A stretch of 64,000 bases of DNA from Thermincola ferriacetica. Lineage in GTDB: Bacteria > Bacillota > Thermincolia > Thermincolales > Thermincolaceae. Under the pieces are notes generated by a model that was given only the letters and a program-made list of their open reading frames with translations, searched no databases and was not told the DNA's origin. The stretch covers positions 186,001 through 250,000 of the forward strand of contig NZ_LGTE01000001.1 in assembly GCF_001263415.1 (NCBI RefSeq), in the 5' to 3' direction. Numbering within the stretch: the stretch's first letter is position 1; each line of letters opens with the position of its first letter. Shown here one piece after another: positions 24,838-37,528 of the stretch. Made by a program: the position numbers and the translations under genes.

Positions 24838-24858
24838 ATCATCAAACAGAATATTATG

Positions 24859-25017
24859 GAATAAGTGGTCCTTCTTGAAAGGACATAATAGGGAAGCCGG
24901 TGCAAATCCGGCGCGGTCCCGCCACTGTAAGAGGAAATCACTTTGCAATATGCCACTGGGTTTAACCTGGGAAGGCGTAAAGTGGTGATGATCTCGAGCC
25001 AGGAAACCTGCTTATTC
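24859..25017 (+). promoter_or_regulatory. Cobalamin riboswitch, copy 1
   Basis: All core features are present: GGGAAGCCGGTGCAAATCCG, then GCGCGGTCCCGCCACTGTAA, and the B12 box GAGCCAGGAAACCTGC near the 3' end. The closing stem pairs GAATAAG (24859-24865) with CTTATTC (25011-25017). It should bind adenosyl- or other cobalamins. The terminator at 25072 is the probable expression platform, giving repression when cobalamin is plentiful. Confidence 0.95.
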
Positions 25018-25071
25018 TGAACTCGCCGTAAGTACCCACGATGGATGGGAAGGGAGAGACTCAGGCTTTTT

Positions 25072-25108
25072 TGCCCTCTGCATCGTCGTGCGGAGGGCAT
25101 GTTGTTTT
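25072..25108 (+). terminator. Terminator of cobalamin riboswitch 1
   Basis: An 11-bp stem (25072-25082 with 25089-25099; TGCCCTCTGCA/TGCGGAGGGCA) is followed by TGTTGTTTTT. It sits between the riboswitch and the second conserved element. Confidence 0.8.
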
Positions 25109-25125
25109 TAAAAAGAAATATACAG

Positions 25126-25348
25126 GAATAGGTGTTTTACTCCGAGGGGTAAAACTTAAATGATTACGACCGTGTTGATTGCTTTAGACCGTGGAATGAA
25201 TGTAAATTCAGACAGATTTACTTACATTCATGATGACCCGGCCTTAAAGCAGACGGCCTATTCTAATACACCGCAGGCTGTAGGGAGGTGATTAGATTAG
25301 GCCGTTTTTATTATCACTTCCCTGGTCTGGATAGACCGGGGATTTTTT
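25126..25348 (+). promoter_or_regulatory. Unrecognised conserved structured RNA element, copy 1, with terminators
   Basis: GAATAGG (25126-25132) pairs with CCTATTC (25257-25263) to close a domain that contains the hairpin GTTTTACTC-CGAG-GGGTAAAAC, the conserved TTAAATGAT, a long variable hairpin (about 25194-25229) and the conserved CATGATGACCCGG (25229-25241). The 3' strand of the closing stem also lies in a terminator-like hairpin (25255-25272 with 25287-25303, then GTTTTT), so the two are mutually exclusive. GGGAGGTGAT (25283-25292) can alternatively pair with ATCACTTCCC (25313-25322). A final terminator occupies 25320-25341 plus TTTTTT. It is not a cobalamin aptamer; I cannot match it to a known class. 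Confidence 0.65.
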
Positions 25349-25386
25349 AAATTGTTCTTGAAATTTAGGGAAAGGGGCTGGGAAGA

Positions 25387-28300
25387 ATGGGAAAATATAA
25401 GTTAAAATTACGCCCGATTGCTCTGTGGGTAGCTATCTGTTTTCTTTTAAGCAATGTGATTACTATGAGCGTAATAAACCAGGCGGCAGCCGCGGAACAA
25501 ACGGCTCTCTATTCGGCCGGTGAGATGGCCGGTAAGGCCGTAAAATTCATTAACCACAAATATAAATCCGGAGAAAGAATTGACGGGTATACCGCCTATG
25601 TGCTGACTTTGGCCGGGGAGGACCTGGCAGGTGAAAAGTGGACCAATAACGGCAAGACATTAAAAAGTGAAATAGAAAACCTGGCCGACCAGTTGGGGGA
25701 CAGCAACAGTTTAATTTCATACATTATAGCCACTCAGAATACCGACGGCAGTTTTGGTCCTTATGCCAACGAGTACGGTACCAAAGTGCCCTTACAGGCT
25801 TTGGCAATGGTTAAAAATGACCTTACGGTCGGTACAGATGTCTATGGTCAGGTGCATGAGGCAATTGCCAAAGCCGTCAATTATTACAAGAACAAATACC
25901 GGAACGGAAATATGGCCTATAATGTTAACGGTTGGGATTTTGATTACCGGTGCGTGGAAGCGCTGGTCGCAGCCGGTGAGGACATTTCCACCGGTGAGTG
26001 GGTGTATAACGGGACCTCGCTTAAGGATGTCATAATAACGTCTGCCAACGCCGCTGCAGATAATGCTGCCGATTTGGATGCTGTACGCCTGGCCAAAGAA
26101 CTTATCGCTTTAAACGCTGTTGATCCCTATTCGGTACATATTGATACCCTGGCTGCTGCCATTAGAAGTAAAGCATCAACTGTTGCTGACCAAGTTTACT
26201 TTGGCAACAATATTTATGACCATGTAACTGTCTTGACGGCCCTGGGGAAGACCGGTAAACTTGCCGGAATTGACCAGGCCAAAGCCCTTGAGTACCTTAA
26301 TAATTTCAAACATGCTCACAGCAATAGTTGGGGCAGCCCGGCCGGGACGGCCTGGGGCGGATTTTCTCCCGAGGAAGCCGACCTGACGGCGCAGGTTATC
26401 ACCGCCCTCATCTATTTTGACGGGGCTGACACGCCGGATAGTCCTGTTTACAGTGCCATTCAGGACGGCTTGACCTATCTTATGGACATCCAGGATGCCG
26501 ATACGGCAGCCATACCCTCCCAGTGGGACAATACCTTTTCCACCGCCGAGACTTTAATTGCCTTAAAATCTCTTGGAAAAACGTACAATGACTATGCCGG
26601 TAATGATTCCCTTTGGATTAAAAAGTCCCGGACCAAAACCATCGCCCAGTGTTTACTGGCCGTAAATATGTGGAAAGATTCAGCCCGCCGGGACCGGCTG
26701 GCCAACCTCCTGATTAACAGGCAAAGGGCGGAAGAACCCGGTAAAGGTTCCTTTGATAACAGCGTTTACAGCGATATGTGGGCCTATATCGCCCTGGGCG
26801 AAGCGGGTAAGATCAACAGCGGAAGTTTTCATACCGAAAATGCCAAAGCATATATTTTATCCAAACAGAGCGTGGAGCAAGATGTTTACGGATCCTGGGG
26901 AGAGAAGTTCGGGGATACATACTATCCTGATGTTTTGTCCACCGCCCAGGCCATCCGGGCGCTCACTTACCTGCCTGACGCCGCGGTGGATGCCGGGATT
27001 CAGGCGGCTGTTGACAGGGGTGTTGCTTATCTGAAAGGGCTCCAGCAAGACGATGGCGGTGTTTACGTGTCGCCATGGGATGACCCTGCCGTGGATAACT
27101 CTGAACTTATTATAACCCTGCGCCAGCTCGGTAAAGACCCTGAAAGTACGGAGTGGACCAGGAACGTTGACGGCAAAAGGGTTAATCCGGTCGCATATCT
27201 GATGACGAAAACCATGAACGAAGACGGCAGTTTTGGGACATCGAGAAATGTTTTTGGAGCTGCCGAGGCCCTTTATGCATATGTTCTCCAGAGTGCTGCC
27301 GGTACAGAGGCCAGTGGCAGCAATAACAACAGCGCCAACAACAACAGCAGCAGTAGCAATAGCAATAGCAATCCGTCTGTTCCGTCTTCTCCAAATGAAT
27401 ACAGTGTCAGTATTGCGGTGGTTGGTAAAAACGGTGAACGTCTCTATGGCCCAGGCAGTGTCACGGTGAGCAAAAACGGCGAGTGGGGCCTGACGGCTCT
27501 GGGCGCTCTTCATGCCACCGGACTCAGCTATACAGAGGACAAGGGTTTTGTCAAAAGTATTGCCGGTCAGGCCAACAGCGGAGTGAACGGGTGGATGTAC
27601 AGTGTCAATAATTCAGTACCCAGCGTGCTGGCCTGCGATAAAACCGTCAATGAAGGTGATCGTATCATCTGGTGGTACAGTACTGAGATGAACTCCAACG
27701 GTCCTTCCTGGGATAGCCTGTTTAAGAGTTCAACAACAGGACAGCCCCAGAATACTTCATTTGCAACACAGATTTCCGGTGAAGTTGGGACAGCGCTGGA
27801 TAAACTGGCTGAAACGCTGGGGCTAAAAGGGGATACCGGAGAGTTAGGGCCCCTGAGTGAATCAGCCAAAGCCGTAGTTGTGGTGAACAGCGACAAACCC
27901 ATAAGCCTGGCCGAAATAATTGCCCTGAAAAAGAGACTGGCGCAAAATACGGTGGAACTGTCCAAGAAAGCAGAGGCCAATCAAGGAACTACCATAACCG
28001 ATACATTAGGCGAGGTGGGGATGAGTGTTCCGGCCAAAGCGCTTGACCGTGATACGGAAATAACTGTTAAAGAGATTACCATACCAGGCGCTGGCGGAAT
28101 CAACGGTGCAGAGGCGCGTACTCCCGCAGGTTACCGGCCGGTATCGTCTGTTTATCAATTCGGACCCGATGGGACCAGTTTTAAGGTTCCGGCGACATTG
28201 GTTCTGAAAGTGGCAATCCCGCGCCTTACCAAACCGGAGAACCTGGCCCTGGCCTGGTACGACAAGGTTAACGGCGCATGGGTCGCTATCCCCGCGGTAG

Positions 28301-28917
28301 TGGATGCGGCAAACGGGCTGGTTGTGGCGAAAATTCGCCATTTTTCCGATTATGCCGTATTTGCCAAAGAGACAAAAAGGTCTTTTGCCGATGTAACTTC
28401 CACTTCTTATGACTGGGCGCGCCACAGTATTGAAACACTGGCGGGGGCCGGGATAGTCAATGGAGTTGATAAAGTCCGTTTTGCGCCGGCCCGCCCAATT
28501 ACCAGGGCAGAATTGGTCAGCCTGCTGGTCAAAGCGCTGGCTCTGCCGAAAAAAACGGAGGATAAAGCGGTCTTTAACGATGTACCGGCCGGCGCCTGGT
28601 ATGCTCAGGACATAGCCGCGGCTGTCCGGGCCGGGCTGATTAAGGGATTTGGCGACGGTACCTGCCGTCCGGACCGTCCTGTTACGCGCGAGGAACTGGC
28701 TGCCATTTTAGCGCAGGCGCTTAACCTGCAGACTTCTGGGAAGGAGTTACATTTCAACGACCAACGGGATATTTCGTCCTGGGCCAAAACAGGTGTGGCT
28801 GCTGCGGCGGCGCACGGCCTGGTAAAAGGTTTCCCCAACGGGGCATTCAGGCCTGCTGCTCCGGCGAGCAGGGCGGAATGCGCGGTAATGATTTATCGTA
28901 TGCTTGAATCGGTGTAG
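25387..28917 (+). CDS. SLH-anchored surface protein with alpha-toroid and DUF4430 (transcobalamin-like) domains
   Basis: This 1176-residue secreted protein has a signal peptide (about residues 1-35). Residues 40-635 form repeats of the prenyltransferase/terpenoid-cyclase alpha-alpha toroid type (QNTDGSFGPYANEYGT, QQDDGGVYVSPWDD, NEDGSFGTSRNVFGAAEALY). An Asn/Ser linker (638-669) leads to a DUF4430 domain (about 670-765, ending WMYSVN...DRIIWWYST). A beta-rich ZU5-like segment (875-995) and three SLH domains (998-1176) for cell-wall anchoring follow. A helical toroid plus a DUF4430-like beta domain is the plan of animal intrinsic factor and transcobalamin. With the cobalamin riboswitch upstream, corrinoid capture at the surface is the best inference. 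Confidence 0.85.
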   Translation: MGKYKLKLRPIALWVAICFLLSNVITMSVINQAAAAEQTALYSAGEMAGKAVKFINHKYKSGERIDGYTAYVLTLAGEDLAGEKWTNNGKTLKSEIENLADQLGDSNSLISYIIATQNTDGSFGPYANEYGTKVPLQALAMVKNDLTVGTDVYGQVHEAIAKAVNYYKNKYRNGNMAYNVNGWDFDYRCVEALVAAGEDISTGEWVYNGTSLKDVIITSANAAADNAADLDAVRLAKELIALNAVDPYSVHIDTLAAAIRSKASTVADQVYFGNNIYDHVTVLTALGKTGKLAGIDQAKALEYLNNFKHAHSNSWGSPAGTAWGGFSPEEADLTAQVITALIYFDGADTPDSPVYSAIQDGLTYLMDIQDADTAAIPSQWDNTFSTAETLIALKSLGKTYNDYAGNDSLWIKKSRTKTIAQCLLAVNMWKDSARRDRLANLLINRQRAEEPGKGSFDNSVYSDMWAYIALGEAGKINSGSFHTENAKAYILSKQSVEQDVYGSWGEKFGDTYYPDVLSTAQAIRALTYLPDAAVDAGIQAAVDRGVAYLKGLQQDDGGVYVSPWDDPAVDNSELIITLRQLGKDPESTEWTRNVDGKRVNPVAYLMTKTMNEDGSFGTSRNVFGAAEALYAYVLQSAAGTEASGSNNNSANNNSSSSNSNSNPSVPSSPNEYSVSIAVVGKNGERLYGPGSVTVSKNGEWGLTALGALHATGLSYTEDKGFVKSIAGQANSGVNGWMYSVNNSVPSVLACDKTVNEGDRIIWWYSTEMNSNGPSWDSLFKSSTTGQPQNTSFATQISGEVGTALDKLAETLGLKGDTGELGPLSESAKAVVVVNSDKPISLAEIIALKKRLAQNTVELSKKAEANQGTTITDTLGEVGMSVPAKALDRDTEITVKEITIPGAGGINGAEARTPAGYRPVSSVYQFGPDGTSFKVPATLVLKVAIPRLTKPENLALAWYDKVNGAWVAIPAVVDAANGLVVAKIRHFSDYAVFAKETKRSFADVTSTSYDWARHSIETLAGAGIVNGVDKVRFAPARPITRAELVSLLVKALALPKKTEDKAVFNDVPAGAWYAQDIAAAVRAGLIKGFGDGTCRPDRPVTREELAAILAQALNLQTSGKELHFNDQRDISSWAKTGVAAAAAHGLVKGFPNGAFRPAAPASRAECAVMIYRMLESV

Positions 28918-28938
28918 GGGTTATGTGAATGCGGAAAA

Positions 28939-28964
28939 TCTCGTTTACTCCTGGGTAAACGAGA
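28939..28964 (+). other. Intercistronic hairpin
   Basis: TCTCGTTTAC pairs with GTAAACGAGA over 10 bp with a 6-base loop, between the large surface-protein gene and the next gene. There is no T-run, so it is more likely an mRNA-stability or differential-expression stem than a terminator. Confidence 0.5.
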
Positions 28965-29001
28965 GTAGAGAGCAGAATCAACTTCTCAGGAGGGGTAGAC
29001 G

Positions 29002-30243
29002 GTGAAAAGTAGAGGGCTTTATTTACTGGGAATCCTGGTTATTTTACTGGGGTTGTTGGGGCCGATTGTTTATTCCGGTAGGCTTACCGGGCGGCAGGGG
29101 CCGTCAGATCCTGGGCAAGCTTTATCCGGCGGTATTAAAGACGGCAGCGCTTCATGTGATGCCGGCGGTGCCCGCAACGCCAGGATTATGCCCTATGATA
29201 CCGGTTCGGGCGTTGTTAATGTTGATTCCGGTGATGTAAATGTTGGTTCCGGCGTTAAAAAAGCCGGGACAAAAAATACTGCCGGTTCGGCTGCGGAAAA
29301 AGGGCAGGTAACTGGCGCCGACTTGTCGGGCAAATTAACTATAAAGAAAGTACCGGAGAGTAATCCGCCGAAAAACGAGGCAGGCGTTCAACTATGGGTG
29401 ACGGAGGATTTCGGCCGCCGTTCAATGTATGCGGAAACGGTCGGTTTCCGCCCCGGGGATGCGGTGCTGGACATCTTAAACCAAAATCTGAACATAGAAA
29501 CAGCCAATGGGGGAACTTTTGTTAAATCCATCAACGGTGTGGCTTCCGGCTATACAGGTAAATCGGGCGGCAAGCGCACGAAAAAGGACTGGTTTTATTG
29601 GGTGAACGGGGTTATGGCTTCTGTCGGCGCCGACCAGTATATCCCTGGCCCGGGAGATGTCATCTGGTGGGATTACCATGATTGGAGCGGGACCATGTTT
29701 ATTCCGGCAGTGATTGGGGCATACCCGGAGCCGTTTCTGCGCGGTTACAGCGGGAAAAACAAGGGGGCAGTAATCTTCTATGCCGACGGTTATGAAGACC
29801 AGGCGCAAAAAATAAAACGCGGACTGGAAAAATTTAGGGTAACGCCGGTAAGCGTGGCGCCTTTTAATGGGGAAGGAATCTCAAAAAGAAACGGACCGGC
29901 TATGGTGGTGGGTCCCTGGACTGTTCTAAAGCAGAGCGAAATACTGAACGGAATGAACGAAAGGGGTATAAAAAGCGGCCTATATGTTAATTTTTCAGAT
30001 GATCGGTTTAACCTGCTGACACCTTCCGGTCAAATTGCCGGAGCCTGCGGGAAGGGCAGCGGCGCAATTGTGGCGGTTGGTGTAGGTAGCGGAGACGCAG
30101 GCGTGTTATGGTTGGTAACAGGGGTTGACCGCCAGGGTCTGGAAAATGCCGTGACTGTTTTGAGTGAACGCCCACAGGAAATAAAGTATTGCTTTGGCGC
30201 CGCCGTTGATTCGGGGAAGGTAATTCCTTTACCCATACAATAA
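29002..30243 (+). CDS. Membrane-anchored DUF4430 protein, probable corrinoid-binding
   Basis: A 413-residue protein starting at GTG 29002 behind AGGAGGGG. Residues 5-24 are one hydrophobic segment that serves as signal or anchor. A Gly/Val/Asp-rich linker runs to about residue 105, then a DUF4430 domain (about 115-232) with VLDILNQNLNIETANG and DWFYWVNGVMASVGADQY, both typical of the transcobalamin-like C-terminal fold. The last 170 residues are a separate alpha/beta domain that I do not recognise (NKGAVIFYADGYEDQAQKIK). Gene order suggests that it receives ligand from the large surface protein. Confidence 0.8.
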   Translation: MKSRGLYLLGILVILLGLLGPIVYSGRLTGRQGPSDPGQALSGGIKDGSASCDAGGARNARIMPYDTGSGVVNVDSGDVNVGSGVKKAGTKNTAGSAAEKGQVTGADLSGKLTIKKVPESNPPKNEAGVQLWVTEDFGRRSMYAETVGFRPGDAVLDILNQNLNIETANGGTFVKSINGVASGYTGKSGGKRTKKDWFYWVNGVMASVGADQYIPGPGDVIWWDYHDWSGTMFIPAVIGAYPEPFLRGYSGKNKGAVIFYADGYEDQAQKIKRGLEKFRVTPVSVAPFNGEGISKRNGPAMVVGPWTVLKQSEILNGMNERGIKSGLYVNFSDDRFNLLTPSGQIAGACGKGSGAIVAVGVGSGDAGVLWLVTGVDRQGLENAVTVLSERPQEIKYCFGAAVDSGKVIPLPIQ

Positions 30244-30265
30244 AATCCAAAGGAGGTCAAAGGGT

Positions 30266-31630
30266 ATGAAAAAGAAGTGGTTCTGTATGGCGCTGGTCTT
30301 GATTCTGCTGGCCGGCATTTTGTCTCCCATGGCAGCATATGCTGAGCCTGCTGCAGATAAAGGCCCAATTAAAACGGCAATGGATAAGGCCGCTGATTGG
30401 TTATGGCAAAAAGAGAAAAAAGAGGGCGGCCTATTGCCATGGAGTTATATTGCTTTGGCTGCGGCGGGGAGGGATTTGGGGAATACATCCGTGGGCCTGG
30501 CATGTGAAAAATTGTTTGCGAATCTTAAAGCAGGAGAGACAAACGATTACAGTACCCTTGTTTTAACCCTGTTTGCCGCAGGCCAGGACCCTTATAACTA
30601 CAAAGGGCAAAACTTGGTGCAGAAACTCCGGGATGCCCGGCTCCCGAGCGGCAAGTATGCCGATAATGTGATTAACGGGGGAGAAGACCTGGTTAATGCC
30701 CATATATGGGCTGTCTTGGCTTTACACACGGCCGGCGCGAGCAGTAAAGAACAAGCAAAAGCGCTGCAGTGGCTGGTTAATCAACAACATGCCGACGGGT
30801 CTTTTTATTGGGATGCAGCCGACAGGGATACTGCCGATGTGGATTCAACCGGCATGGCTCTAATGGCTCTGGGCGCGCTGGGCGAAAAAAAGGACAGCCC
30901 GGTGATGCAAAAAGCCGTGGCTTACTTGAGAAGTGCGCAAAAAGATAGCGGCGGGTTCAATTCCTGGGGTACGGAAAACCCTGAGTCATGTAGCGTGGTT
31001 ATCCAGGGATTGACTGCAGTCGGAGTTGACCCCACCGGACAGGAATGGTTGAAGTCCGGCGGAAACCCGGTAACCGCCCTCTTGAGTTTTCAACTGCCTG
31101 ATGGTTCTTTTAGTCATCTAAAAGGCGGCGTCGCCAGTGAAATGGCTACCCAGCAGGCTTTAATGGCATTGGCAGACGTTTATTATGGGGATACCTTGTT
31201 TAACAGGCTCCGCTCACAGCCTTCCGCTGCCTTGCCGGAGCGGACCGTACGCTTTGAAGCCGGCAAAAAACAATATGTTGTTACTATTGGCGGGCAGCCG
31301 CAGAAGCATGAAACCGATGCCGCGCCTTTTACTCAAAACGGCCGCATTTATGTACCGGTGCGCTATCTGGCTTATGCCCTGGGGATACCTGAGAGTGGGG
31401 TTAACTGGGACAGTAAGTCCCGTACTATTACATTATCACTGAACGGCGCCTGCGTTAGGCTGGCCGTTGGCAGCCTTCTAATTTACACAAACAATGCCCC
31501 GCGTCAGATGGATGTGGCGCCGGTGCTGCGCCATGGCCGTACTTACCTTCCTGCCCGCTATGTAGCGGAGTCCTTTGGGTTCCGGGTAGACTGGGACCAG
31601 GCAGCCCAGGCCGTAATCATAACAAAATAA
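30266..31630 (+). CDS. Secreted alpha-toroid protein with copper amine oxidase N-terminal-type stalk domain
   Basis: The 454-residue protein has a signal peptide cleaved after about AAYAEP (residue 28). Residues 35-315 contain prenyltransferase/squalene-cyclase-like repeats (NQQHADGSFYWDAADRDTAD, QKDSGGFNSWGTENPESCSV, QLPDGSFSHLKGG), related to the toroid of the 1176-residue protein. The C-terminal part (about 325-454) is a CuAO_N1/stalk domain with two repeats, each with RxYVPVRYLAYALG or RTYLPARYVAESFG. These domains attach proteins to the cell surface. It keeps the toroid half of the two-domain plan while the preceding gene keeps the DUF4430 half. Confidence 0.8.
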   Translation: MKKKWFCMALVLILLAGILSPMAAYAEPAADKGPIKTAMDKAADWLWQKEKKEGGLLPWSYIALAAAGRDLGNTSVGLACEKLFANLKAGETNDYSTLVLTLFAAGQDPYNYKGQNLVQKLRDARLPSGKYADNVINGGEDLVNAHIWAVLALHTAGASSKEQAKALQWLVNQQHADGSFYWDAADRDTADVDSTGMALMALGALGEKKDSPVMQKAVAYLRSAQKDSGGFNSWGTENPESCSVVIQGLTAVGVDPTGQEWLKSGGNPVTALLSFQLPDGSFSHLKGGVASEMATQQALMALADVYYGDTLFNRLRSQPSAALPERTVRFEAGKKQYVVTIGGQPQKHETDAAPFTQNGRIYVPVRYLAYALGIPESGVNWDSKSRTITLSLNGACVRLAVGSLLIYTNNAPRQMDVAPVLRHGRTYLPARYVAESFGFRVDWDQAAQAVIITK

Positions 31631-31673
31631 GTAAGGTATTTACGATTAAAATTTTAGCAGAGGTGGTTAATCC

Positions 31674-32603
31674 GTGTTTGACCAGTTGTTTTACCGGGAA
31701 AAAGGGCTTTTTTTGCAGAGTTTGCATTCGGTGGCCGCGCTAACTTATATAGCAGTATTATTTCTCCTGGCCTTTGTCTTTTCACACCCTTTCTACCTGG
31801 CTGGGCTCCTTCTCGTTACTGCGCTGGCCATTTGGGCTGCCGATGGATTAGAAGCATGGGAATCCTATTTAAAAGTTAGTTTGGGTATGATCGTCTTGAT
31901 TATTATTGTCAATCCTCTTATGGTCCATGCCGGGGAAACCGTCCTTTGGTACGGCCCCAGGATTCCTGTTCTGGGGCGTTTGGTAATAACGCTGGAAGCC
32001 ATCTGCTACGGGGCGGCGATGAGCGTGCGGCTGTTGGCTGTGATAAGCGTTTTCTGCCTATATAATCTCATTATGCATCCCGATAAAACATTACAATTAT
32101 TTTCCCGCCTTGCTCATAAGTCCGGTTTGATTATATCCCTGGCTACCAGAATGTTTCCTGCTATGGTCAGAGATGTAAATAGTATCAGTGAAGTACAGCG
32201 GATGCGGGGAGTAGATTTTGCTTCGGGGAATTTGAAGGAAAAGATAAAAAAATACGCGTCCTTGCTCAATATCTTGCTCTTATCTTCTCTAGAGGGTTCT
32301 TTACAAATCGCGGAGGCCATGCAGGCAAGGGCTTTCGGCAGCGGGCCCCGTTCCAGCTACCGGCGGGAATTGTTCCGGCCGCGGGATTTGCTTTGCCTGT
32401 CAGGATGTGGTTTAGCGTTAACTTCCGGGCTATACGGTTTCTTCAAAGGTTATGGCACATATGAATATTATCCGCAACTGGGATATCTGATTGACGGAAG
32501 TATGAACTTGTTAGTTTTGGCCGTCTTGTTGATAGGTTTACTTGTTCCGGTTGCGTTAAGCTGGGGGTGGAAACATTGCCGCTATTTGAAATCAAAAATC
32601 TGA
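31674..32603 (+). CDS. ECF transporter T component (EcfT/CbiQ family)
   Basis: The 309-residue membrane protein has five to six hydrophobic segments and the cytoplasmic coupling helices with EVQRMRGVDFAS and MQARAFGSG (the two Ala-Arg-Gly-type motifs that contact the ATPases). It starts at GTG 31674 behind GAGGTGG. It would join the S component at 34287 to the double ATPase in a group I or dedicated ECF transporter. It overlaps the ATPase gene by 37 bases. Confidence 0.88.
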   Translation: MFDQLFYREKGLFLQSLHSVAALTYIAVLFLLAFVFSHPFYLAGLLLVTALAIWAADGLEAWESYLKVSLGMIVLIIIVNPLMVHAGETVLWYGPRIPVLGRLVITLEAICYGAAMSVRLLAVISVFCLYNLIMHPDKTLQLFSRLAHKSGLIISLATRMFPAMVRDVNSISEVQRMRGVDFASGNLKEKIKKYASLLNILLLSSLEGSLQIAEAMQARAFGSGPRSSYRRELFRPRDLLCLSGCGLALTSGLYGFFKGYGTYEYYPQLGYLIDGSMNLLVLAVLLIGLLVPVALSWGWKHCRYLKSKI

Positions 32604-34294
32604 TTTACTATTACCCTGACATTGAAAAGCCGGCTCTAAACAACATTAACCTGATTATTGAAGAAGGAGAGTTCCTGCTTGTAGCTGGCGGTTCAGGCTC
32701 GGGCAAGTCTTCCCTGGCGCGGGCGCTGGCCGGATTAATACCTGATTTTTACGGCGGAAAATTCGGGGGCAAGGTTTTGTTTCAAGGTAGGAACTTGCGT
32801 GAAATAGACCGGCGTAGTTTGGCCAGGGAAGTCGGTATTGTTTTTCAGGACCCCGAGAAACAGTTGGTAATGACCAGTGTGGAAGCTGAAATAGCTTTTG
32901 GTCTGGAAAATCTATCGCTGCCGCAGGATGAAATGTTCCGCCGGGTAGCCGAAGTGATGAGTTTTCTTGATTTATCGGCAGTGAAAGATGAGTTTACCGG
33001 CAATCTGTCGGGGGGTCAAAAACAGAGACTGGCTCTGGCTTCTGTCCTGGCTATGCAGCCGAAGGTACTAATCTTGGATGAGCCCACCTCACAGTTGGAT
33101 CCGGTTGCTGCCGAGGAACTGCTTAATTTAGTTAAACGGTTAAATGAAGAAATGGGGTTAACGATTATTTTAATCGAACAACGCCTGGAAAGGTGTTTTC
33201 ACGTGGCTGACCGGTTGATAATTATGGAATGCGGGGAAATATTAAAGGGCGGCCCGGCGGACGAGGTGGCCCGGTGGGAAGTAGAGAAATCCATTCCTTT
33301 TATCCCGCCGGTGGCAAAATTTTTTGCTTCTCTCGGCGCTTCCACCATACCGCTTACTGTTAAAGAGGGACGTAAGGCGTTAAAACCGTATTATTCAATG
33401 CCGGGGGCCCGGGCCAACCGGACAGCGTCTGCGCCCTTACCAAATAAGAGAGACTTAAAGGTTAGAAGCAAACCGGGACAAGAAAACAGAGAAAATACCA
33501 TGGTTGAACTGAAAAATGTCTGGTTTACCTATCCGGGTGGCCGGGAGGCGCTGCGCAACGTCAACTGCCGCATTGAACAAAAGGAATTTGTAGTTATTCT
33601 GGGAGAGAATGCAGCCGGAAAATCTACTTTACTTAAACATGTGGCAGGATTGCTGAAACCGGGGCGCGGCAGCGTGTCGGTAATGGGCAGGGAGACCGGA
33701 AAAACACCGTTAGCGGAGTTGGCCCGGTATGTGGGCTACCTATCCCAAAACCCAAACGACTACCTGTTTCAGGATACAGTGGAGGAAGAACTGCTGTTTA
33801 CTCTCAAGAATTTTGGGCTGTCAGATTTTGGGCGTATCGAGAATCTTTTAGATAAACTGAATTTATCTCACTATCGTACCGCCAACCCGAGGGATTTGAG
33901 CAGCGGTGAACGGCAGCGGGTTGCCCTGGCGGCAGTATTGGCATCGCGGCCGCTACTGCTCTTGCTGGATGAGCCTACCCGCGGCATTGACTATCGCCTG
34001 AAAAATGAATTGGGTGATTTGCTCTCGGAACTCAGGGAAGAAGGGATTACAATAATTATGGTTACGCATGATATCGAGTTTGCGGCGGAATACGCCGATC
34101 GCGTGATTTTGATGTTCGATGGCCGGGTAGTCAATACAGGGTCAAAACGCGAAGTTTTGGGAGGCTCGGTTTTTTATTCGCCCCAAATGAGCAGGCTGTT
34201 CAGAGGGACTGTTGACGGCATCCTCACAGTGGCCGAGGCTATTGAGGAAATGCGGGAATTGCAGGGCATGGTGCGGGATGGTACTCATGCGTGA
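32567..34294 (+). CDS. ECF transporter double ATPase (fused A components)
   Basis: A 575-residue protein with two CbiO/EcfA-type ABC domains. Domain 1: GGSGSGKSSLARAL, LSGGQKQRLALAS, VLILDEPTSQLDPV. Domain 2 (from about residue 311): GENAAGKST, LSSGERQRVALAA, LLLLDEPTRGID; the signature is LSSGE instead of LSGGQ. A basic linker joins them. It starts at GTG 32567 inside the T-component gene. It supplies energy for the corrinoid ECF transporter. Confidence 0.9.
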   Translation: METLPLFEIKNLIYYYPDIEKPALNNINLIIEEGEFLLVAGGSGSGKSSLARALAGLIPDFYGGKFGGKVLFQGRNLREIDRRSLAREVGIVFQDPEKQLVMTSVEAEIAFGLENLSLPQDEMFRRVAEVMSFLDLSAVKDEFTGNLSGGQKQRLALASVLAMQPKVLILDEPTSQLDPVAAEELLNLVKRLNEEMGLTIILIEQRLERCFHVADRLIIMECGEILKGGPADEVARWEVEKSIPFIPPVAKFFASLGASTIPLTVKEGRKALKPYYSMPGARANRTASAPLPNKRDLKVRSKPGQENRENTMVELKNVWFTYPGGREALRNVNCRIEQKEFVVILGENAAGKSTLLKHVAGLLKPGRGSVSVMGRETGKTPLAELARYVGYLSQNPNDYLFQDTVEEELLFTLKNFGLSDFGRIENLLDKLNLSHYRTANPRDLSSGERQRVALAAVLASRPLLLLLDEPTRGIDYRLKNELGDLLSELREEGITIIMVTHDIEFAAEYADRVILMFDGRVVNTGSKREVLGGSVFYSPQMSRLFRGTVDGILTVAEAIEEMRELQGMVRDGTHA

Positions 34295-35036
34295 AAGTGG
34301 GTTGAGATGGCGCTTCCCTTTATTTCTGTCAGTAGTGGCGGTGTTATTGATACTGAGTATACGGGGCGACAATTCTGTCTCCGGGCAGAATTGGGGCTTA
34401 TTATCCGCTGAAATTGTAGCTGCGGCATTGGCGTTTTTATACTGGGACTTTGAAAAAAGTACTGCTTCATCCCGTGAAATAGCGGATATTGCCGTACTCG
34501 GCGCCATAGCCGCAGTGGGAAGGGTGCCTTTTGCGGTGCTGCCCAATGTTCAGCCGACTACGTTTATAGTTATAATCTCTGGTTTTGTGTTTGGGCCGCG
34601 GGCAGGGTTTATGACCGGCTCAACCGCCGCGATTGTGGCTAACCTTTTTCTGGGCCAGGGGCCGTGGACGCCGTGGCAGATGTTTGCATGGGGTCTGGCC
34701 GGAGCTACCGCGGGTGTGCTCAAGAGTTTCTATCCCCGTATAGGCCGCCGGGCCATGGTAATCTTTCATATTGCCTGGGGTTATTTGTTTGGTTGGATCA
34801 TGAATCTGTGGTTCTGGACGGCCTTTATTTACCCGCTGAACTGGCAGTCATTTTTGGCCGCTTATGCCGCCAGTTTCTGGTTTGACACCTTCCATGCCTT
34901 GGGGAATGCCGTCTTTTATTTGCTTTTTGGGGCCGGTTTTACCAGGATTTTAACCCGTTTCCGCAGAAAGCTGGAGGCGAGTTATTTGCCTGAGACTCCG
35001 GCTCAACAAAAAAACAAGGCGCAAGGTGATATGTGA
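34287..35036 (+). CDS. ECF transporter S component, probable cobalamin/corrinoid-specific (CbrT-like)
   Basis: A 249-residue membrane protein. The ATG at 34287 overlaps the ATPase stop (ATGCGTGA). Conserved stretches GRVPFAVLPNVQPTTFIVII and GFMTGSTAAIVANLFLGQGP are those of the S-component family that includes cobalamin-specific CbrT/CblT. The last residues are hydrophilic. Location between the ECF energising genes and cbiZ, under a cobalamin riboswitch, supports uptake of cobalamin or cobinamide. Confidence 0.83.
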   Translation: MRESGLRWRFPLFLSVVAVLLILSIRGDNSVSGQNWGLLSAEIVAAALAFLYWDFEKSTASSREIADIAVLGAIAAVGRVPFAVLPNVQPTTFIVIISGFVFGPRAGFMTGSTAAIVANLFLGQGPWTPWQMFAWGLAGATAGVLKSFYPRIGRRAMVIFHIAWGYLFGWIMNLWFWTAFIYPLNWQSFLAAYAASFWFDTFHALGNAVFYLLFGAGFTRILTRFRRKLEASYLPETPAQQKNKAQGDM

Positions 35037-36121
35037 TGCTAATTTATGAAACGAAAAGCGGGGAAAAAGTATACCGGATGGATAATACGATAATTGTTTT
35101 TTTCCCCGGCCCGCGCCTGGTTATAAGTACGTCCAGGATTAACGGCGGTATTCGGGAAGATCTTGAGGCAGTGTTTAATCACTGCCTGCCTCCGGAAAAG
35201 TGTCTTGTGAAAAATCTGCCCAATGGTAGCGCAGAACAGTATTTGGAACAATTGGCCGCTAAACTGCATTTACCCCCCAAACGTACCGCTGGTCTATTGA
35301 CTGCTGCCAGAATGGAAAATATAGCCATAAAGGCAGCGGGTTTTCAACAGTTAGAGGTTACAGCCCTGGTAACTGCCGGAGTGGATGTTAACGGGGGCCG
35401 GGCCGGCGACCCGGCGGCCTACCACGAGGCGGACGGGCAGTATACTGTCCTGGGCGGGACCATAAATATTATACTTATCATAAATGGCAACCTGTCGCCT
35501 TATACTTTGGTGCGAACTGTTGTGACGGCTACTGAAGCGAAAACAGCCGCTTTACAGGAACTCATGGCGCCCAGCCGTTACTCCCGGGGTATTGCCACCG
35601 GTTCCGGCACTGACCAGATTATTGTGGTATCTAATCCATCAAGCCTATACAGGTATACAGATGCCGGAAAACACTCAAAATTAGGAGAGTTAATCGGGTC
35701 AGCCGTTAAAGATGCTGTCAAGGAAGCCTTGTATAAGGAGACCGGCCTCGGGCCGGAACGCCAGCGGAATTTCCTGGCGCGTTGGGCGAGATACGGGATT
35801 AAGGATGAGGATTTCTGGCAGGAAGCTCGGCGGGATGGGGCCATTCTGAGCCGGGAAATGTTCATCGAAAGACTAAACCGGTTGGCTGGGGAAGAACGGT
35901 TAGTAACTTTGGCTGCGGCTTTGATACATCTGCTGGACGAGTATACATGGGGATTGTTGTCTGCCGGGTTGGTAATGGAAATTGGAGAAAAGCTTATTCA
36001 ATCGTTCGCCGGGAAAGTCTCGACCTGTAATAGGGTACATGATCCCCCTGACTATTTGAGCCGGTTGTTTATCGAATTGACGATAAAACTGTTGGATAGC
36101 AGTGCTGAGTTTAATTGTTAA
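35033..36121 (+). CDS. cbiZ: Adenosylcobinamide amidohydrolase CbiZ
   Basis: CbiZ hydrolyses the amide bond that links the nucleotide loop aminopropanol to the corrin ring, giving adenosylcobyric acid, so foreign corrinoids can be rebuilt with the cell's own lower ligand. The signature LVTAGVDVNGGRAGDPAAY is near residue 122, with GTINIILIINGNL and RTVVTATEAKTAALQEL following. The chain (362 residues) is longer than archaeal CbiZ by a C-terminal helical region from about residue 235. GTG 35033 and ATG 35036 are both possible starts; both overlap the S-component stop. It is the last gene of the operon. Confidence 0.9.
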   Translation: MMLIYETKSGEKVYRMDNTIIVFFPGPRLVISTSRINGGIREDLEAVFNHCLPPEKCLVKNLPNGSAEQYLEQLAAKLHLPPKRTAGLLTAARMENIAIKAAGFQQLEVTALVTAGVDVNGGRAGDPAAYHEADGQYTVLGGTINIILIINGNLSPYTLVRTVVTATEAKTAALQELMAPSRYSRGIATGSGTDQIIVVSNPSSLYRYTDAGKHSKLGELIGSAVKDAVKEALYKETGLGPERQRNFLARWARYGIKDEDFWQEARRDGAILSREMFIERLNRLAGEERLVTLAAALIHLLDEYTWGLLSAGLVMEIGEKLIQSFAGKVSTCNRVHDPPDYLSRLFIELTIKLLDSSAEFNC

Positions 36122-36205: not shown

Positions 36206-36226
36206 AACCTCAAACAGAATATTGTG

Positions 36227-36387
36227 GAATAAGTGGTCCTTATTAGAAGGACATAATAGGGAAGCCGGTTAGAATCCGGCGCGGTCCCGCCACTGTAGGA
36301 GGAAATCGTTCTGCATTATGCCACTGGGCGGTAGCCTGGGAAGGCGCAGAAACGGTGATGATCTCGAGCCAGGAAACCTGCTTATTC
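36227..36387 (+). promoter_or_regulatory. Cobalamin riboswitch, copy 2
   Basis: Nearly identical to copy 1: closing stem GAATAAG/CTTATTC (36227-36233, 36381-36387), GGGAAGCCGGTTAGAATCCG, GCGCGGTCCCGCCACTGTAG and the B12 box GAGCCAGGAAACCTGC. Differences lie mainly in the variable peripheral stem. It should reduce cobalt import and cobK expression when cobalamin is sufficient. Confidence 0.95.
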
Positions 36388-36431
36388 TGAACTCACCGGT
36401 AGTACCCACGATGGATGGGGAGGTTGAGAGT

Positions 36432-36484: not shown

Positions 36485-36504
36485 TGTAACAATTTAATAA
36501 TTCA

Positions 36505-36708
36505 AATAGGTGTTTTATCCCGAGGGATAAAACTTAAATGATAATAACTTTTTACATGGACGGGGAATGGAATTAAAATATACTTAATTTCATGATGACC
36601 CGGACTTGTAAAAGCGGCCTATTCTAGTTCACCGCGTCATTTCCGGGAGGTGGTTAGATTAGGCTTTGTTTAAAACGCTTTTCTCCCTGGCTGACGACCA
36701 GGGTTTTT
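36505..36708 (+). promoter_or_regulatory. Unrecognised conserved structured RNA element, copy 2, with terminators
   Basis: AATAGG (36505-36510) pairs with CCTATT (36618-36623). Inside are GTTTTATCC-CGAG-GGATAAAAC (compensatory changes relative to copy 1, same CGAG loop), TTAAATGAT, a hairpin ATGGAATTAA/TTAATTTCAT of different sequence, and CATGATGACCCGG (36591-36603) unchanged. A terminator-like hairpin uses 36616-36633 and 36649-36664, again overlapping the closing stem. The final terminator is CCCTGG/CCAGGG (36685-36703) with TTTTT. Confidence 0.65.
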
Positions 36709-36781
36709 CTTTGAAACTGAAAAAACATTTTGAATTGGTTAAAACTTATAAAGCATAATCTGAAAATGAGGAGTGATTTCT

Positions 36782-37528
36782 GTGAATCGTTACACGACAC
36801 TCATATTAACGGGTTTATTTGCCTTAATTCTGTTCAGTGTGCCGGAATATGCTTATGCCATGCATATCATGGAAGGTTTTTTACCGGCTAAATGGTCCAT
36901 ATTCTGGTCAGTTCTGACGATACCTTTCCTGGTTAGGGGGCTTCGGACGATAAAAAAGAAGGTTGAAGATAACCCATCCTTGAAATTATTATTAGGTGTG
37001 GCTGGCGCATTTGCCTTTATACTTTCTGCCTTGAAAATGCCTTCCGTTACCGGGAGCAGTTCCCATCCAACTGGAGTGGGCCTGGGAGCGATACTTTTTG
37101 GGCCTACGGCAATGACCGTGATCGGCGTGATTGTTTTGCTGTTCCAGGCTATATTGCTGGCTCACGGCGGAATTACGACCCTTGGGGCAAATACTTTTTC
37201 CATGGCAGTGGCAGGTCCCTTCGTGGCCTACTGGATATTTAAATTGGGTAAAAAAATAGGCCTGCCCACCTGGCTGTCCGTTTTTCTTGCGGCTTTTGCC
37301 GGTGACCTGATTACATATGTGGTTACTTCAGTGCAGTTAGCAGCCGCTTTTCCTGCTGCCCAGGGTGGTGTAGCAACTTCCGTTGTAAAGTTTTTGAGCG
37401 TCTTTGCTGTAACTCAGTTACCGCTGGCTGTTAGTGAAGGAATTTTAACGGTGATTGTGTTTAACTTTTTGAAATCATATAATCAGCAGGAACTGAAAGA
37501 GTTGTCGGTAATAGGAGAGGAGGTATAA
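36782..37528 (+). CDS. cbiM: Cobalt ECF transporter component CbiM
   Basis: The precursor has a cleavable signal ending at AYA, leaving the mature N terminus MHIMEGFLP whose histidine and terminal amine bind Co(II). [17 protein letters not shown] and [15 protein letters not shown] are CbiM landmarks. I take GTG 36782 (248 residues) as the start because TGAGGAG lies 8 bases upstream; the GTG at 36773 overlaps that site. It is the substrate-specific membrane component of the cobalt transporter encoded by the next three genes. Confidence 0.93.

Follow-up and report, generated by a model that had tools for sequence, protein, structure and literature searches.

The RNA element encoded directly behind a cobalamin riboswitch in Thermincola ferriacetica derives from the cobalamin aptamer but lacks the ligand-binding core, as seen from its relatives L025, L029 and L036, and on balance it has probably become a second transcription-attenuation switch, in second place of a tandem, under a signal here termed X. 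Its structure, covariation, tandem linkage, descent and the mutual exclusivity of its closing stem and terminator are supported by computation. Two copies occur in the window (the whole stretch of 64,000 nucleotides that was analysed), and all features described here lie on its + strand. The core of copy 1 is found at 25125-25268 and scores 147.5 bits with the covariance model R1, a score that is not independent since copy 1 is among the six sequences from which R1 was built; copy 2, including its terminator T1, lies at 36503-36672 and scores 115.9 bits, likewise as a model member. As the earlier note had it, the element follows a cobalamin riboswitch: canonical riboswitches of family RF00174 are the first members of both tandems, at 24846-25029 (140.2 bits) ahead of copy 1 and at 36214-36399 (130.1 bits) ahead of copy 2. 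The sequence ACCCACGATGGATGGG, 3' of the canonical riboswitch (24984-25060 and 36354-36430), is kept between copies and between genomes.

The fold is a three-way junction of P1, a YGAG-looped P2, a UUAAA junction and P6, the last leading through a k-turn (5' GA / 3' NAU-GA) into P7, whose apex carries AAA...ACUU. In copy 1, the P1 5' strand GGAATAGG (25125-25132) pairs with the 3' strand CCTATTCT (25257-25264), judged from the sequence and from pair counts. The P2 hairpin with its CGAG cap spans 25134-25155 and has TTAAATGAT (25156-25164) directly on its 3' side, while the P6 5' strand UGCUUUA (25180-25186) has its partner UAAAGCA at 25245-25251, an assignment that rests on the arm-swap test. 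The k-turn and P7 arm occupy 25189-25241, with the k-turn read from sequence: 5' GA at 25194-25195, P7 at 25196-25231, the loop GAU at 25232-25234 and GA at 25235-25236. The segment CATGATGACCCGG (25229-25241), which the earlier note called invariant, is so between the two window copies but not across the family. The closed domain, the CGAG-capped hairpin and the terminator-like hairpin sharing the 3' strand of the closing stem, all read earlier from copy 1, are present there.

Covariation, proposed earlier as a check on relatives gathered with a covariance model, is present. Among 31 aligned relatives, 93.1% of cells are paired and 23 of 32 pairs have changed on both sides, with a covariation score of 0.609 against 0.251 +/- 0.014 for shuffled and 0.08-0.11 for slid controls; these figures lean in favour of the structure, to which the alignment was fitted, and they place it far beyond chance. 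P2 is 98% paired, with 8 of 9 pairs changed on both sides, and P7 is 97.7% paired, with 9 of 10 pairs so changed. An independent test on hand-cut strands, comparing matched with swapped arms, gave z = -6.8 for P6, -10.2 for P7 and -8.8 for P2 (0 of 2000 permutations in each case). The P6 arms of the two window copies are wholly unlike, yet each is complementary (UGCUUUA/UAAAGCA and UUUUACA/UGUAAAA). The 231-nt fold of copy 1 has z = -5.0 against dinucleotide shuffles, none of 200 being equally stable. GGUG, the YGAG loop (47 of 50), UUAAA and the AA..ACUU of the P7 tip (49 of 50) are near-invariant across the family, and few of the junction nucleotides are invariant. The YGAG loop is absent from the neighbouring upstream riboswitches and, with the P7 tip, is a trait of the element family.

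BLAST revealed four further copies in genome G004, two of them consecutive, and, in G046, an element of a related type. The model R1 was then searched against genomes of the phylum and, after removal of false matches (L039, L040) and of canonical cobalamin riboswitches with a similar P2 (L011, L047, L066, L081), the element was found in about 21 of 398 phylum genomes and, in two classes, in about 16 of 113 and in 10 of 22. The family comprises about 50 relatives in about 40 genomes from several classes of one phylum, and its hosts include Moorella stamsii, Moorella mulderi and Desulfofundulus thermobenzoicus. Sequence-pattern matches in contigs of a cyanobacterium (L053) and a Colwellia (L058) were rejected, having no support from the covariance model. 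An RF00174 riboswitch lies about 70-200 nt upstream of every copy for which upstream DNA was scanned, L016b following another element; the L050 locus ends early, and its matching copy L089 has an upstream B12 box by pattern. L016 (1455-1845; G004:C50, at about 27 kb) is a triple array in which two core-less elements stand behind a canonical cobalamin riboswitch, ahead of a gene for a predicted DUF2162 transporter. At L065 (G004:C50, 74086-74546), a degenerate riboswitch (31.3 bits) with a likewise YGAG-looped P2 precedes, rather than follows, the canonical one.

The link with corrinoid and cobalt genes that the earlier note had drawn holds across the family. Genes downstream of the elements, named by Pfam for representatives and by eye from similarity for the remainder, are cbiM (about 20), genes for toroid/DUF4430 surface proteins (about 11), cbiJ (about 9), btuF-like genes (about 5), DUF2162 and a few unresolved. 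Within the window, Pfam assigns the genes after copy 1 (25387-36121) to toroid/DUF4430 proteins, a CbiQ-like protein, an ECF ATPase, an ECF S component and CbiZ, and copy 2 is followed by cbiM (36773-37528; PF01891), for ECF uptake of cobalt. Three adjoining large proteins (25387-31630) have alpha/alpha-toroid (SQHop-like) and DUF4430 domains, one of them with SLH repeats, and stand upstream of the ECF transporter genes and CbiZ; similar proteins also lie downstream of the element in Moorella. Since this domain layout is that of intrinsic factor and transcobalamin, the three are possibly a bacterial system for capturing corrinoids at the surface. The genome of the window has two element copies against eight canonical cobalamin riboswitches, of which only two carry the element; the remaining six are found ahead of cbiD, cobT, a cobU/cobalamin-synthesis operon and further genes (named by eye from translations).

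That the element is unrecognised, as had been claimed, is true in so far as it belongs to no Rfam family: Rfam 15 gave no credible match at either element, and NiCo, Moco, SAM and all other families in it gave no covariance-model match. A permissive scan of 25040-25400 returned weak sRNA, miRNA and leader matches far below cut-off and no Cobalamin. It is nonetheless related to cobalamin riboswitches, which the claim had missed. RF00174 scores form a continuum from 59 bits in L025 through 32.7 in L029 and 20.9 in L036 to none in copy 1; only the first two of these relatives pass the gathering cut-off of 31.5 bits, copy 1 has no match up to E=10 and copy 2 none at the gathering threshold. The L025 element aligns to RF00174 end to end (positions 1 to 189); its gaps fall on the P3 GGG, on the hairpin P5/L5 and on the B12-box sequence GGAGACC. 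By a test of RF00174 topology, P1, P2, P6 and the k-turn arm are present in the element and, given the continuum, were inherited. The B12 box (GCCAGGAGACC; J6/3) was seen in neither window copy, and no more than 1 of 50 elements matches its pattern; the same applies to P5/L5 (GGUCCCGCC), which makes the L5-L13 kissing loop. In known structures, L5 and J6/3 are part of the corrin site or lie next to it (PMC9600662; also general knowledge), so corrin binding in the known mode is not expected of an element that lacks both. Canonical cobalamin riboswitches often occur as tandem pairs in the phylum (G002:C2, G003:C14, G005:C15, G055:C8, G118:C1, G253:C20 and G276:C15), and such pairs are the likely source of the element.

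The closing stem competes with a terminator. T1 of copy 1 (25251-25309) has a 5' arm that starts at 25251 and includes the P1 3' strand, a 3' arm that ends at 25303 and a T-run at 25305-25309, so that T1 and P1 exclude each other; its local fold has -28.2 kcal/mol, and that of copy 2 -24.8. The minimum free energy (MFE) fold of the core alone contains P1 in 29 of 30 members, whereas in the full-length fold T1 displaces P1 in 29 of 30 and retention of P1 costs a mean of 6.5 kcal/mol, these being secondary-structure MFEs without tertiary contacts or transcription kinetics. This exchange is what the earlier note had described as mutually exclusive pairing. The arms of T1 covary (own against other downstream sequence, z = -8.4, 0 of 2000 permutations) and a T-run closes most T1 hairpins; P1 is weak in L033, L036, L044, L074 and L079, and L045 has lost T1. 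In one respect the element agrees with riboswitches in general: its domain is conserved and covaries, and the stem that closes it is incompatible with a terminator. A second terminator, T2, follows in copy 1 (25319-25348; hairpin 25319-25342, -16.7 kcal/mol, then TTTTTT at 25343-25348) and in copy 2 (36685-36708; -9.5 kcal/mol hairpin and TTTTT). Its hairpin is seen in about 20 members, and its 5' arm can pair with GGGAGGTG once T1 is open. In copy 1, the candidate antiterminator (25282-25323) joins AGGGAGGTGAT (25282-25292) to ATCACTTCCCT (25313-25323) at -18.8 kcal/mol. Strong support for this pairing comes from copy 1 (z = -4.9), L020 and L030, but with a mean z of -1.7 in 20 members a T2 antiterminator has no more than moderate support across the family.

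These features suggest the following mechanism. A cobalamin aptamer in the second position of a tandem would have lost its corrin-binding core, namely P3-P5 with L5 and the B12-box junction J6/3, while P1, P2, P6 and the k-turn arm were retained and the YGAG loop of P2 and the AAA/ACUU tip of P7 became fixed. During transcription, the core would fold first and P1 close; as the downstream arm emerges, T1 would capture the P1 3' strand and transcription would terminate, unless the core is stabilised. A stabilised core would keep P1, block T1 and leave transcription on, in agreement with the earlier prediction, to which the P1 and T1 folds also point, that the formed domain prevents termination. 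In copies with T2, it would also free GGGAGGTG to pair with the T2 5' arm and so block T2. Presumably, then, the switch is of the ON type and needs a signal. Behind an OFF-type B12 riboswitch, it would give a 'NOT B12 AND X' gate (no adenosylcobalamin AND signal X) over the uptake of cobalt and corrinoids and the early steps of cobalamin synthesis. With about 50 copies keeping both the shape and the on/off terminator, the element is probably a second control input on B12 and cobalt genes. Judging from the set of downstream genes, and from the absence of the element at the synthesis operons of the window genome, X may convey information on the acquisition of cobalt or corrinoid, or on whether acquiring them is worth the effort. 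Most likely, X is a small molecule at the junction. A bolder version, in which the element is a new riboswitch class that lost its cobalamin pocket, gained a different ligand at the three-way junction and forms this gate in tandem with its ancestral class, is put forward tentatively.

The element could instead be a ligandless relic, in which sensing was lost and the remaining shell with T1 and T2 merely adds fixed termination, making the upstream B12 switch tighter. Lineages differ in how far the core is eroded, T1 is thermodynamically favoured in nearly all members and tandem cobalamin riboswitches are common, all as such a relic would have it. However, a plain terminator needs neither covarying P1, P2, P6, k-turn and P7 nor loop identities kept family-wide, and the competition between P1 and T1 is retained in nearly all members, so that we regard this explanation as rather unlikely. 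Loops and k-turns are typical protein-binding motifs, and the best-conserved parts of the element are its loops and k-turn (motifs read from sequence); a protein at the YGAG loop, the k-turn or the P7 tip might thus stabilise the core and block T1. The k-turn, however, comes from cobalamin riboswitches, in which no protein is required for it, and antitermination by a protein seems improbable. Least probable is a second B12-type sensor of other affinity or specificity: descent from RF00174 and the P4-like hairpin of L025-type members (59 bits) would favour altered corrinoid binding, but two parts that in known structures make up or adjoin the corrin site (PMC9600662 and general knowledge), the kissing-loop partner L5 and the B12 box, are missing, and an ON response to B12 behind a B12 OFF switch makes little sense.

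Several other candidates were rejected. Cobalt as the ON ligand does not fit the place before cbiM, because a substrate would not be expected to switch on its own uptake. Kinship with SAM-I, raised by GAUGA..CCCGG, comes down to a common k-turn motif; the helix order differs and Rfam gave no match. For leader-peptide attenuation, GGAGGTGAT resembles a Shine-Dalgarno sequence, but no conserved start codon stands behind it and lengths vary out of frame (inspection by eye). A plasmid origin gave no match. No report of the element was found in the literature searched, the coverage of which was partial, so novelty is not proven.

The favoured reading, a core-less aptamer descendant turned second switch, makes it possible to follow how, after tandem duplication, one riboswitch turned into a different regulatory RNA, with the intermediates persisting in species alive today. 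For Moorella and other anaerobic Bacillota, it suggests that cobalt uptake and B12 acquisition answer to a further signal that had gone unrecognised, and it implies that riboswitch descendants without a core escape Rfam searches. Compared with RF00174 (class I, adenosylcobalamin), the element shares P1 with GGUG, P2, the UUAAA junction, P6, the k-turn arm and downstream corrinoid and cobalt genes, and its intermediates align end to end. However, it is without GGGA/P3, P5-L5 and the B12-box sequence GGAGACC, has a new P2 loop and P7 tip, and its terminator overlaps P1 directly. Repeated cobalamin riboswitches with several expression platforms likewise place two cobalamin-type RNAs in tandem; in contrast to these, the second member here has no sensing core, and a pseudo-cooperative response to the same ligand is therefore not expected. 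The pairing of a riboswitch with a descendant of its own class is absent from the passages considered of a review of tandem riboswitch logic gates (PMC9481103). What the present tandem has in common with such gates is an OFF switch followed by a switch predicted to be ON, each with its own terminator, which would make a 'NOT A AND B' gate; it differs in that its second member belongs to no known class and is descended from that of the first.
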